Shown: positions 2,930 through 8,028 of the stretch, piece after piece | Numbering within the stretch: the stretch's first letter is position 1 | Layout of the letters: every line of letters starts with the position of its first letter | Assembly (NCBI GenBank): GCA_029933365.1 | Contig: JAOZOH010000081.1 | Location: forward strand, 1 to 12,540 | DNA: 12,540 bases | Origin: Desulfuromusa sp. | GTDB lineage: Bacteria > Desulfobacterota > Desulfuromonadia > Desulfuromonadales > Geopsychrobacteraceae | Reading direction: 5' to 3' | Made by a program: the position numbers and the translations under genes | Notes under the pieces: generated by a model | Database searches by the model: none | What the model saw: only the letters and a program-made list of their open reading frames with translations | What the model was told of the DNA's origin: nothing

Positions 2930-3424
2930 ATGAAGATTATGGCAGTGGTTCTTTTGGCTTTCCTGATGACCTCATCCTCTGTGTTTGCATTGGAGTATCA
3001 AGTCAATGTGGTGCAAAAAGGGGGCAACCTTTATTGGGCAGCAACTGAAAAAATGTACATCCAGACCGAATATTGTTTTGAGAGTGCTGATCCGGCAGTT
3101 CTTCTCCTGCGTATAGATGGTGATAGTGGGGAAATAACGTTCACGGAATCCGGGCGTAAATGCGATGTGAAGATGATCTACGGACAAGCTCAACTGGAGG
3201 CGGGGAAATACTCGATAAAAGTGAGCCGGGATGACGATAATTGGTATGGGATCGTGGGTAAAAATATGGCATTAAATACCAGTGGCTGCTTGAGTCTGGT
3301 TGATGACATGCAGGCCAGCCTGCAGATGAACGCGGATGGAACAGGGATCTTGTCCATCCCTGATGCCGACGAAAAATGTGCGGTTGAAGGGGTTTATTCA
3401 AAAGCTCAGCTGAAGCTGGAATAA
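2930..3424 (+). CDS. Secreted protein with two copies of a two-cysteine module
   Basis: A family I do not recognise; 164 residues. Residues 1-20 form a clear Sec signal peptide (hydrophobic MAVVLLAFLM, cleavage probably after VFA at 18-20), so the protein is periplasmic or secreted. The mature part contains two related units. Unit 1 runs from C49 to C78, then V80, Y84 and AQLE. Unit 2 runs from C120 to C150, then V152, Y156 and AQLK. In both, two cysteines are 29-30 residues apart, a Gly and Ile-containing strand lies between them (GEITF, GILSI), and the unit closes with KC-x-V-x3-Y-x2-AQL. All four cysteines are in these units, suggesting one disulfide per unit. Start: ATG with GGAG at 2921-2924, 5 nt upstream. 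It sits behind the MBL gene on the same strand and ends before the shared terminator at 3531-3560. Function unknown. Confidence 0.85.
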   Translation: MKIMAVVLLAFLMTSSSVFALEYQVNVVQKGGNLYWAATEKMYIQTEYCFESADPAVLLLRIDGDSGEITFTESGRKCDVKMIYGQAQLEAGKYSIKVSRDDDNWYGIVGKNMALNTSGCLSLVDDMQASLQMNADGTGILSIPDADEKCAVEGVYSKAQLKLE

Positions 3425-3530
3425 TACCAGCATATTGATCAGAGCTGCCAATAAAGATGATGCGGAAACTTTGACGGCATTGACCTTCAAATCAAGGGGA
3501 TACTGCTGGGGATATCCAGATAGACCAATA

Positions 3531-3560
3531 AAAAAAGGCAGCCAATCGGCTGCCCTTTTT
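3531..3560. terminator. Bidirectional intrinsic terminator
   Basis: GGCAGCC (3537-3543), loop AATC, GGCTGCC (3548-3554). A run of A precedes the stem and CTTTTT follows it on the plus strand; on the minus strand the stem is followed directly by six Ts. It is a good rho-independent terminator in both directions and separates the plus-strand secreted-protein gene from the converging minus-strand mini-membrane-protein genes. Confidence 0.92.
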
Positions 3561-3583: not shown

Positions 3584-3808
3584 TTAGTTCTTAGCGGTAG
3601 CAGCTTTACGACCACTTTGCTTGACAGCAGCTTTAGTCATACCGAAGAGGGTCAATACAGCAGGAACCAGTTGAGCAACGATCAACAAGGCACAGAACCC
3701 GACAAACAGAAGAACCAGGATGCCACTATTATAGGTTTGAGTTGTATCAACAGCAAATGCAGGTACGGCGAACAGGCTCAGGGTCAGTGTAGTGATGATT
3801 GCTTTCAT
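3584..3808 (-). CDS. Mini membrane protein, paralog B (74 aa, QLVPA motif)
   Basis: A small protein of unknown function. Residues 1-19 look like a Sec signal peptide (cleavage after AFA). The mature protein of about 55 residues has a short polar N-terminus (VDTTQTYNSG), one hydrophobic segment (about 30-57) and a basic tail (KQSGRKAATAKN). The membrane segment carries Gly, Gln and Pro in the shared signature GF-x-AL-x-IV-x-QLVPA. It is clearly paralogous to the 74-residue product of the next gene upstream: 14 of 21 residues are identical across the core. Start: ATG at 3808 preceded by AAGGAG with a 6-nt gap, an excellent site. It lies 47 nt behind its paralog with no terminator between and probably shares its sigma-54 promoter. 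It ends before the terminator 3531-3560. The good ribosome site, the paralog and the signal peptide make it a real gene despite its size. Confidence 0.85.
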   Translation of the reverse strand: MKAIITTLTLSLFAVPAFAVDTTQTYNSGILVLLFVGFCALLIVAQLVPAVLTLFGMTKAAVKQSGRKAATAKN

Positions 3809-3855
3809 GATGATCTCCTTTAAAAGTTTAATTTATTTGTTTATTTCGTATCGTT

Positions 3856-4080
3856 TTAGTGAGTTGTAACTTCTTTATGATCACGGCCAAATAGCCCTTT
3901 GAGAGCACCAATCAACATGATTGTTGCAGGAACCAATTGACAGACAATGATTAGAGCAAAGAAGCCGATGAACAAAGAGAGGAGCAATCCACCACCACTT
4001 GCACTGTTGCTACCTGCTGCAAAAGCTGAAGAAGAAAAAGTGATCAGGGCGATTAATGTATTGCGTAATGTGTTTTTCAT
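3856..4080 (-). CDS. Mini membrane protein, paralog A (74 aa, QLVPA motif)
   Basis: Unknown function; the same length and architecture as its downstream paralog. Signal peptide 1-21 (hydrophobic LIALITFSSSAFA, cleavage near AFA/AG), a short Ser/Gly-rich N-terminus (GSNSASGGG), one membrane segment (about 31-60) with the signature GF-x-AL-x-IV-x-QLVPA, then a short charged tail (GRDHKEVTTH). The reading frame stays open far upstream to 4233, but ATG at 4080 is the right start: GGAGG (4086-4090) lies 5 nt upstream, the signal peptide begins there, and the sigma-54 promoter at 4138-4155 is inside the longer version. After cleavage the predicted topology is N-outside, C-inside. Small signal-peptide plus one-TM proteins include filamentous-phage coat proteins, VirB2/TrbC pilins and stress-related mini-proteins; I see no decisive similarity to any of these. 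Confidence 0.85.
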   Translation of the reverse strand: MKNTLRNTLIALITFSSSAFAAGSNSASGGGLLLSLFIGFFALIIVCQLVPATIMLIGALKGLFGRDHKEVTTH

Positions 4081-4137
4081 GATGTCCTCCATCTCTATGT
4101 TTGAATTGCTTTTTTGTTTGCTTATGACCAGATATAA

Positions 4138-4155
4138 AGCAGTGACCGTGCCAAG
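4138..4155 (-). promoter_or_regulatory. Sigma-54 (RpoN) promoter
   Basis: The minus strand reads TTGGCACG-GTCA-CTGCT. The -24 element TTGGCACG is a complete consensus match. The -12 element CTGCT differs from TTGCT/A at one base. GG and GC are at the required spacing (TGGCACG, four bases, then xTGC). The predicted start is near 4127, leaving a leader of about 46 nt before ATG 4080. Sigma-54 promoters depend on an AAA+ enhancer-binding protein acting from upstream, so these two mini-membrane-protein genes should be switched on by a specific signal. No regulator gene is in the window. Confidence 0.82.
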
Positions 4156-4392
4156 TTGAAATAAAAAACATAAAATAATCCATAACTCACTGAAAACAAA
4201 AGATAAATAATTTATTTTAGAGATGAGAAACAAAGATGCTTAGATATTCACCTGTATAAAGAGGACATACAGTTGGAGGGAGGAACTCCGCAAGACAGTA
4301 AGCTAATAAAATCATAACTACTTGAAATAAAAGCAATTTATCAGGAAATATAAATTGTATATATTTTTATTGGCGTAAATATTTTTTTTATG
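4156..4392. other. AT-rich non-coding region upstream of the sigma-54 promoter
   Basis: No gene is supported here. The region is strongly AT-rich from about 4300 to 4390. It contains an inverted repeat AAATATA-n7-TATATTT (4346-4366), about 200 bp upstream of the -24 element, a usual distance for an enhancer-binding-protein site, but in such AT-rich DNA it may be chance. A short G-rich patch with GGAG-gaa-CTCC occurs near 4280-4290. Bent AT-rich DNA upstream of a sigma-54 promoter could help DNA looping; that is inference. Confidence 0.4.
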
Positions 4393-7074: not shown

Positions 7075-8028
7075 CTATTCTCCGCGTCTGGCCAGTTTGT
7101 TAGAAAAAATTGAGAGCAAGCCACCAAGCATGATATAGCCGGTTGAGACTTCCAGCATGACGACAATCTGTCCGCCGATGCAATTGGGTGCAACATCCCC
7201 AAAACCAAGGGTGGTCAGCGTGACGACGCTAAAATAAAGTGGTGACAGGCTGGTTGGATAGCTGCCGTAGTCGATACCAACCAAGGTGTAAAAGTAACTA
7301 AAAAGAAGCAGCAGAGCACCGATACAGCAACACCAGCGCAACATGCTGCGACCGCAGTCGCAAGTCCATAGCCAGGGGTAATAGAGTATTTTGGATAGCC
7401 AGTTATAGGCACGGAACTCTTTGATAAAGTTTTGATCAACAATTTCCCGACGCATCAGATAGGCGCCGGAAAAATTGACATCACGGATATCAACCCCAAT
7501 CCAGGTGGCAGATTTGAATTGCCGTAACATTCTTAGCCGGGCATGGCGCAAATCGGCATTAGTGAAATCAGCTTTGCGGATATTAGATAACGACATCTCT
7601 GCATAGCGAAGATCGGCATCTGTTAAGTTGGCTTCTGTCAGGTTGGCCTCACGTAAACGACTATGGTTCAGGTTGGCCAAGCTTAGGTTGGCGTGCTCAA
7701 GACTGGCTTGCGTCAAAGTGGCACCTTCGAGGTTAGATTTGAATAGGCTTGCATGGCTCAGATTTGCTCTACCGAAACCAGCTTGTTTACAATTTGCTCC
7801 ATCTAGAACTGCACCTTCAAGGTTGGCGGTAGAAAGTTCAGCACCTTCAAGGTTGGCGTCCTGCAGATTGGTGCCACGCAGATCTGCATTAAATAATTGA
7901 ATACCTCTTAAATCCCGTCCCGAAAGGTTTAAATCGCGCAGATCTGCGCCATTAAAATTTGTTCCACGCAAATCTTCATCGGAAGAAAGAGCTTTTTGTC
8001 GAAGTTGTTCGGAATTGAGCTGATGCAT
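7075..8028 (-). CDS. Pentapeptide-repeat protein fused to a two-TM K+ channel module
   Basis: 317 residues in two parts. Residues 17-165 are pentapeptide repeats, A(D/N)LxG-type, which fold as a right-handed quadrilateral beta-helix; many are arranged as ten-residue pairs such as ANLEGAELST. Residues 231-310 form an Ion_trans_2-type channel module: TM1 (about 234-250), a pore loop with selectivity filter TLGFGD (273-278), the K+ channel TVGYGD signature with Phe for Tyr, and TM2 (about 286-307). The protein is expected in the inner membrane, with the beta-helix in the cytoplasm. A short segment before TM1 has five cysteines within 13 residues (C223, C225, C233-235). The usual RCK or cyclic-nucleotide gating domain is absent, so the beta-helix may be the gate or an assembly scaffold. 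Start: ATG at 8028 with AGGG 5 nt upstream. Followed 8 nt later by the HDOD gene. Confidence 0.9.
   Translation of the reverse strand: MHQLNSEQLRQKALSSDEDLRGTNFNGADLRDLNLSGRDLRGIQLFNADLRGTNLQDANLEGAELSTANLEGAVLDGANCKQAGFGRANLSHASLFKSNLEGATLTQASLEHANLSLANLNHSRLREANLTEANLTDADLRYAEMSLSNIRKADFTNADLRHARLRMLRQFKSATWIGVDIRDVNFSGAYLMRREIVDQNFIKEFRAYNWLSKILYYPWLWTCDCGRSMLRWCCCIGALLLLFSYFYTLVGIDYGSYPTSLSPLYFSVVTLTTLGFGDVAPNCIGGQIVVMLEVSTGYIMLGGLLSIFSNKLARRGE
7811..7858. repeat. Direct repeat with 30-bp period inside the pentapeptide region
   Basis: The 18-mer GCACCTTCAAGGTTGGCG occurs at 7811-7828 and again at 7841-7858, exactly 30 bp (ten codons) apart; a diverged relative begins near 7724. On the coding strand each copy encodes the ANLEGA portion of a pentapeptide pair. 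Identity at DNA level suggests recent duplication or gene conversion of ten-residue units rather than protein-level convergence alone. Confidence 0.8.

Follow-up and report, generated by a model that had tools for sequence, protein, structure and literature searches.

The window analysed here is a stretch of DNA of 12,540 nucleotides from Desulfuromusa sp., and it carries two small neighbouring genes that raise a simple question: what are these two similar proteins, and which system do they serve? An earlier note on this DNA had described them as a pair of paralogous 74-residue proteins, and both open reading frames are present as it stated. Gene A, the first of the pair, lies at 3856-4080 and gene B, its paralogue and the second of the pair, at 3584-3808, both on the minus strand; each encodes 74 residues, with the stop codon included in the coordinates. 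In a single pairwise comparison the two proteins align with 38% identity across 66 residues (E 3e-13). They share a core, GFFALIIVCQLVPA in A and GFCALLIVAQLVPA in B, for which the consensus is GF(F/C)AL(I/L)IV(C/A)QLVPA. Good ribosome-binding sites (ggagg and aaggag) stand one ahead of each ATG. A signal peptide and a transmembrane segment were assigned to both proteins by eye from the sequence, so that the predicted topology is an export-type N-terminus followed by one conserved helix. The AlphaFold2 model of A (mean pLDDT 75) places helices at residues 2-24 and 31-69, and the first of these is taken as the export signal because an AxA-like site, again read by eye, lies at its end.

The transcription unit in the window appears to be confined to these two genes. 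Past the 3' end of B, at about 3530-3555 on the minus strand, the sequence reads GGCAGCC-loop-GGCTGCC and then a T run, a probable terminator that would close a two-gene A-B unit; the window scan lists the palindrome on the plus strand, one being found against 1.0 expected from shuffles. Genes for cytochrome c, cytochrome b and FeS/NrfD proteins are absent from the unit, as is a receiver gene. Elsewhere in the window, a gene convergent with B (2930-3424, plus strand) encodes a secreted-looking protein of 164 aa that has no match in Pfam or NCBIfam, and one at 7075-8028 (minus strand) encodes a protein of 317 aa that joins a pentapeptide-repeat domain to an Ion_trans_2 channel domain.

Neither A nor B has a match in Pfam, NCBIfam or PADLOC, in agreement with the earlier note, which knew of no named system or family for the pair. 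PHROGs gave a single weak match for A (E 0.039) and none for B, plasmid records gave no match for A, and in the PDB one chain matched the joint profile at a non-significant E of 0.34, leaving no solved relative there. The parts of the mostly open-access literature that were searched nowhere describe the A-B pair or the dyad TGTAT-N9-ATACA discussed below. Within these databases and this literature, the protein family of A and B is undescribed.

With E limited to 0.01, protein searches returned 180 relatives of A and 387 of B; the joint A/B profile, with the limit at 1, returned 892. Close named relatives, among the matches listed (120 for each protein), are mostly annotated as Desulfuromusa, and the 62 loci from a scan of species genomes bear titles of Desulfuromonadales groups or plain Deltaproteobacteria, with one Pseudomonadota. 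The earlier note had also asked how often the family occurs and what accompanies it: of the 136 genomes scanned from the order, 88 carry it, each with between 1 and 17 matches, and receiver genes and Cbc-type operons stand beside some copies. Part of the window's surroundings is kept as well, with a 2-hydroxyacid dehydrogenase gene upstream of A-B at four loci (L001, L004, L016, L020) and a metallo-hydrolase gene beyond B at four (L001, L004, L007, L020).

A tree of 129 copies separates first-position (A) from second-position (B) genes throughout the order; this separation, which rests on 75 columns with several long branches, has a support of 89/73, and an ancient duplication is therefore likely rather than proven. 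Recent tandem duplication in this genome is disfavoured, since the tree groups the genes by position across the order. A gene labelled A has one labelled B within 1,700 nt in 52 of 71 cases (two others lie at contig ends and 17 are unpaired), a count that understates the pairing, and is therefore left aside as evidence, because the labels were given by a text rule that mislabels some copies (e.g. L029, L051, L058 and L059). The earlier note had read the equal size of A and B as a sign of a hetero-oligomer. Such an assembly is compatible with the long-standing A/B split and with the pair staying together, without following from them; equal length is not general, the relatives measuring about 72 to 81 aa and more. 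Two irregular copies were seen along the way. The gene at L002:5752-5976 is chimeric, with the N-terminal half of an A and the C-terminal half of a B joined at the conserved QLVPA, and looks like either a recombination between neighbours or an assembly fault; at L047:9351-9591, ahead of a second B, a second A-type copy lies in two frames, by frameshift or sequencing error.

What controls the pair can be read upstream of A. The minus strand carries TGGCACGGTCACTGCT at 4138-4153, 60 nt ahead of the ATG of A; this is a sigma-54 (-24/-12) promoter with one mismatch to TGGCACN5TTGC. We do not accept this match as proof on its own: with up to two mismatches the pattern occurs 13 times in the window against a shuffle mean of 13.9, and one other site there is also at one mismatch. 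The promoter becomes convincing because it is conserved in the family. TGGCAYN6TGY stands 39-101 nt before the start codon in 56 of the 61 family transcription units, that of the window among them, for which 130 nt or more of upstream sequence is available, where dinucleotide shuffles predict 0.06; these units are not independent, being drawn from related loci of which a few overlap (L003/L008, L018/L022). The units scored as lacking it have particular features: at L013 and L053 the element is there with one base altered, at L047 the scripted start codon is too far upstream and the element is 4 nt away, L039 probably shows the same fault, and the contig of L056 holds the receiver-B part only. 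The near-perfect promoter that the earlier note saw ahead of the pair thus stands, and the conditional, regulator-driven expression that it deduced would follow from this conserved sigma-54 promoter. A sigma-70 promoter was rejected, the three candidates in the window equalling the shuffle mean of 3.1 and none lying on the coding strand.

Looking for dyads farther upstream than the promoter in family members brought out a second control element, which the earlier note had missed. In the window, an exact enhancer-like dyad, TGTAT-N9-ATACA, lies at 4253-4271 on the minus strand with its centre 109 bp upstream of the -24 box, and adding one base per side extends its arms to the six-base CTGTAT/ATACAG. 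With up to one mismatch the pattern has two matches in the window against 0.32 expected, that at 4253-4271 being exact. Among 59 promoter-bearing family genes (the window's included, and one place, L003:14508 = L008:5912, counted twice), the best dyad scores 10/10 in 29, 9/10 in 21, 8/10 in seven and lower in two, compared with shuffle expectations of 0, 1.3 and 10.5 for the first three classes over 58 regions of at least 150 nt. The centre usually falls 105-110 bp upstream of the -24 box, and at some loci a dyad near 206 bp occurs instead or additionally. We regard the dyad as the putative binding site of a sigma-54 response regulator. The place counted twice, L003:14508-14729 (= L008:5912-6133), holds a B-type gene that stands alone, behind a sigma-54 promoter of its own and a dyad scoring 9/10.

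The genomes of seven relatives contain the exact combination of dyad and promoter 16 times and a looser form of it 27 times, the reversed pattern occurring 0 times in either case. The 27 looser sites comprise 22 at family genes (one of these truncated at the edge of its contig), one at the operon of L084, one chance site inside an unrelated gene (L086) and three at contig ends. Over the whole order, the exact combination is found at 61 places in 35 of the 136 genomes (reversed control 0), and all 35 are family-positive. The downstream gene was inspected at 40 of these 61 places. Lenient E-values assigned 33 of the 40 to the family, and a stricter repeat resolved these into 27 clear family genes (>70 bits), three family-like starts that run into a contig end (3 to 22 bits) and three weak matches of 16-21 bits (L120, L121, L139). 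The others are a receiver gene (L117), a cytochrome b gene (L119), a gene for a 55-aa protein (L138) and four places that could not be judged, with the contig edge within 80 nt. At L084 a putative membrane protein of 53 aa comes directly after this dyad and promoter, and genes for cytochrome c and an FeS protein come next; the 55-aa product at L138, directly under the same elements, is a putative membrane protein like that of L084.

The same dyad and promoter lie ahead of most relatives of the pair, including those that head operons for Cbc-type menaquinol:cytochrome c oxidoreductases. These operons are of two kinds, one with a 7-haem cytochrome and a cytochrome b (Geobacter Cbc5/CbcBA-like) and the other with cytochrome c, FeS and NrfD proteins. 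In L058 (Geobacteraceae), the order is histidine kinase, sigma-54 response regulator, A, receiver protein, B and then the cytochrome complex, which, according to Pfam and to haem motifs counted by eye, consists of a 7-haem cytochrome with doubled CxxCH, a cytochrome b561, a 12-haem cytochrome, a HAMP protein and a further membrane protein. Two papers describe Cbc5 as heptaheme CbcA (PF09699), cytochrome b CbcB (PF01292), 12-haem CbcC and the HAMP protein CbcD (PMC7726332, PMC7894505). The Cbc5/CbcBA locus of Geobacter sulfurreducens (GSU0590-0594, with GSU0595-0597 upstream) thus encodes the same kind of complex as L058 has after A-receiver-B, whereas the window has neither receiver nor cytochromes. 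In the part of a further study that covers these genes, GSU0597 is hypothetical, GSU0596 is a response receiver and the two co-vary (PMC10599522); we infer that GSU0597-0595 correspond to A-receiver-B. CbcBA is described as induced once easier acceptors are gone and as used near -0.2 V (PMC12307469).

Desulfuromusa and Malonomonas have the same head part ahead of genes for cytochrome c, an FeS protein and an NrfD protein. Such operons, found in relatives from Desulfuromusa, Malonomonas and Pelovirga, have the same genes of the family and the same receiver at or near their head, together with the dyad, promoter, kinase and regulator, and, by the subunit names given in the literature consulted, are comparable to Geobacter Cbc3. 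They differ from the window in that their complex genes are missing from it, and the control region upstream of their A is weaker, with TGT for TGC in the promoter and a dyad of 8-9 of 10. In the genome G041 and its relative G042, what comes after the family genes is a receiver-like protein (Pfam E 0.0017, short of the cut-off) and no cytochromes; a 7-haem/cytochrome b operon lies elsewhere with its regulator. A-B often occurs with no adjoining cytochromes, and a role as a subunit is therefore not forced. Small single-helix subunits are familiar from respiratory enzymes, CydX and CcoQ being examples, and A and B resemble these in size, in their one conserved helix and in the link to an oxidoreductase. 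Searches of Pfam, NCBIfam and the PDB nonetheless showed no sequence relation, and A and B are set apart by their export-type N-terminus, their occurrence as paired paralogues and their fusions to receivers.

A candidate switch lies beside these operons: in relatives, the Cbc-type operons are adjoined by a histidine kinase whose sensor part contains CxxCH and by a sigma-54 response regulator in which the helix that reads the DNA hardly varies. Among the ORFs with sigma-54 activator motifs at the first 62 loci, 22 of 24 end in EETGMLRPNFQ or EEVGMLRPNFQ (the exceptions being L053 and L055), and 18 of the 19 listed kinases have CxxCH in the sensor part, the remaining one (L034) being cut by a contig end. 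Searched for as a DNA pattern, the regulator helix occurs exactly once per genome in 45 of the 136 genomes, all of them within the 88 that are family-positive. The exact helix is missing from 43 of those 88 and from six of the 35 dyad-positive genomes, which may be explained by regulator variants, as in L163. At the CbcBA locus the sigma-54 response regulator is BccR, and the regulators of L058, L037 and others resemble it in their position beside a Cbc operon and in their sigma-54 activator domains. In D. kysingii the single such regulator lies on C16 beside a cytochrome operon and the window-type pairs lie on C9 and C14, which suggests control in trans. A regulator of the same kind would presumably act on the pair in the window.

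Family, promoter, dyad and operon context are thus legible in the sequences, and together they alter the standing of the pair. The earlier note had named it the best candidate in the window for an undescribed system. That judgement holds for the proteins, which matched no named family in the searches above, and fails for their isolation, as dyad and promoter are common to the Cbc-type operons of relatives; an isolated new system is rejected on this ground. The kind of system is already known, a two-component/sigma-54 respiratory regulon, and the shared control region makes the pair look like an orphan branch of it. At the level of sequence, membership of A and B in the Cbc regulon is strongly supported. 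We consider it probable, with appreciable room for other readings, that A and B are a stand-alone accessory pair of this regulon, that is, undescribed small inner-membrane proteins switched together with Cbc complexes. Their molecular role would be that of a small subunit or of a partner of the degenerate receiver.

The receiver raises the foremost competing explanation. Receiver ORFs run in frame into B in 26 of 34 cases (23 flagged by script, with L033, L035 and L039 added from full ORFs). In 19 of these 26 fusions an AAGGNG-type ribosome site lies shortly before an in-frame ATG of B, and in 15 it is exactly AAGGAG (L005, L009, L010, L011, L013, L014, L017-L019, L027, L028, L031, L036, L044 and L056), so that one such gene may yield both the fusion and free B. 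No separate inner start for B was seen in L033, L035, L039 and L047, where B is hence plainly fused, and the inner start is ambiguous in L021, L030 and L060. The model of a receiver-B fusion is poor (mean pLDDT 59) and serves only for the order of the elements. These fusions, together with cases in which A, B and receiver occur as a group with no cytochromes, favour a signalling module: A and B would form a membrane platform tethering the receiver and acting by feedback on the kinase or the regulator, and the cytochromes would merely be co-regulated. Against this, a receiver is missing beside the window copy and beside several others, and the receiver itself is degenerate, the Asp at the presumed phosphorylation position, which we assign from general knowledge of the receiver fold, being present in 14 of 34 and missing in 20. 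We find this explanation rather unlikely. A bolder proposal, which we hold to be unlikely and advance only tentatively, is that A, B and the degenerate receiver make up a membrane module tuning quinol:cytochrome c oxidoreductases after translation, with the receiver either forming part of a small membrane subunit or docking to it, the whole under one dedicated haem-kinase/sigma-54 switch and the dose set by multiplying stand-alone A-B copies.

A more general protection of the membrane or the proton-motive force, with A and B as stress proteins co-induced with the complexes and acting on the membrane, would suit the small conserved helix, the many stand-alone copies (up to 17 matches in a genome) and the fact that a complex does not always adjoin; it fits poorly with an enhancer common near-exclusively to this family and to respiratory operons, and with the lack of similarity to stress families in Pfam or NCBIfam, and we think it doubtful. 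Toxin-like, defence or phage-derived small membrane proteins, e.g. holin-like ones, are very improbable indeed, as size and a single conserved helix are all that recommends them, and a defence or phage origin is rejected on the PADLOC, PHROGs and plasmid-record results given above, with the synteny kept in relatives and the control common to respiratory genes.

Under the preferred reading of A and B as an accessory pair of the Cbc regulon, the sensor kinase with its CxxCH (c-type haem) motif would phosphorylate the sigma-54 response regulator, and this would bind TGTAT-N9-ATACA on the upstream side of the -24/-12 promoter, at a distance of about 109 bp, with sigma-54 polymerase then transcribing the genes. 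Where the operon is complete, these would be the genes for A, the degenerate receiver, B and the cytochrome complex; the window unit, an extra stand-alone copy driven in trans, would yield A and B alone. Both proteins would be exported, would be held in the membrane by their single conserved helix and would carry a charged tail; most likely they would serve the Cbc complex, or the receiver that partners it, in the manner of accessory or assembly subunits, with the window copy raising the A/B dose when the switch fires.

Since the pair shares its switch with the electron-transport complexes of metal-breathing bacteria, A and B are probably helper parts of that respiration. For the Desulfuromonadales, the analysis supplies a candidate enhancer defined by its sequence, and a narrow set of targets for the switch that lies beside Cbc-type complexes. 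The most multiplied of its putative targets are unnamed small membrane proteins, often accompanied by a degenerate receiver, and not the cytochromes. The part that A and B may play in low-potential respiration and extracellular electron transfer thereby becomes directly testable by deletion.
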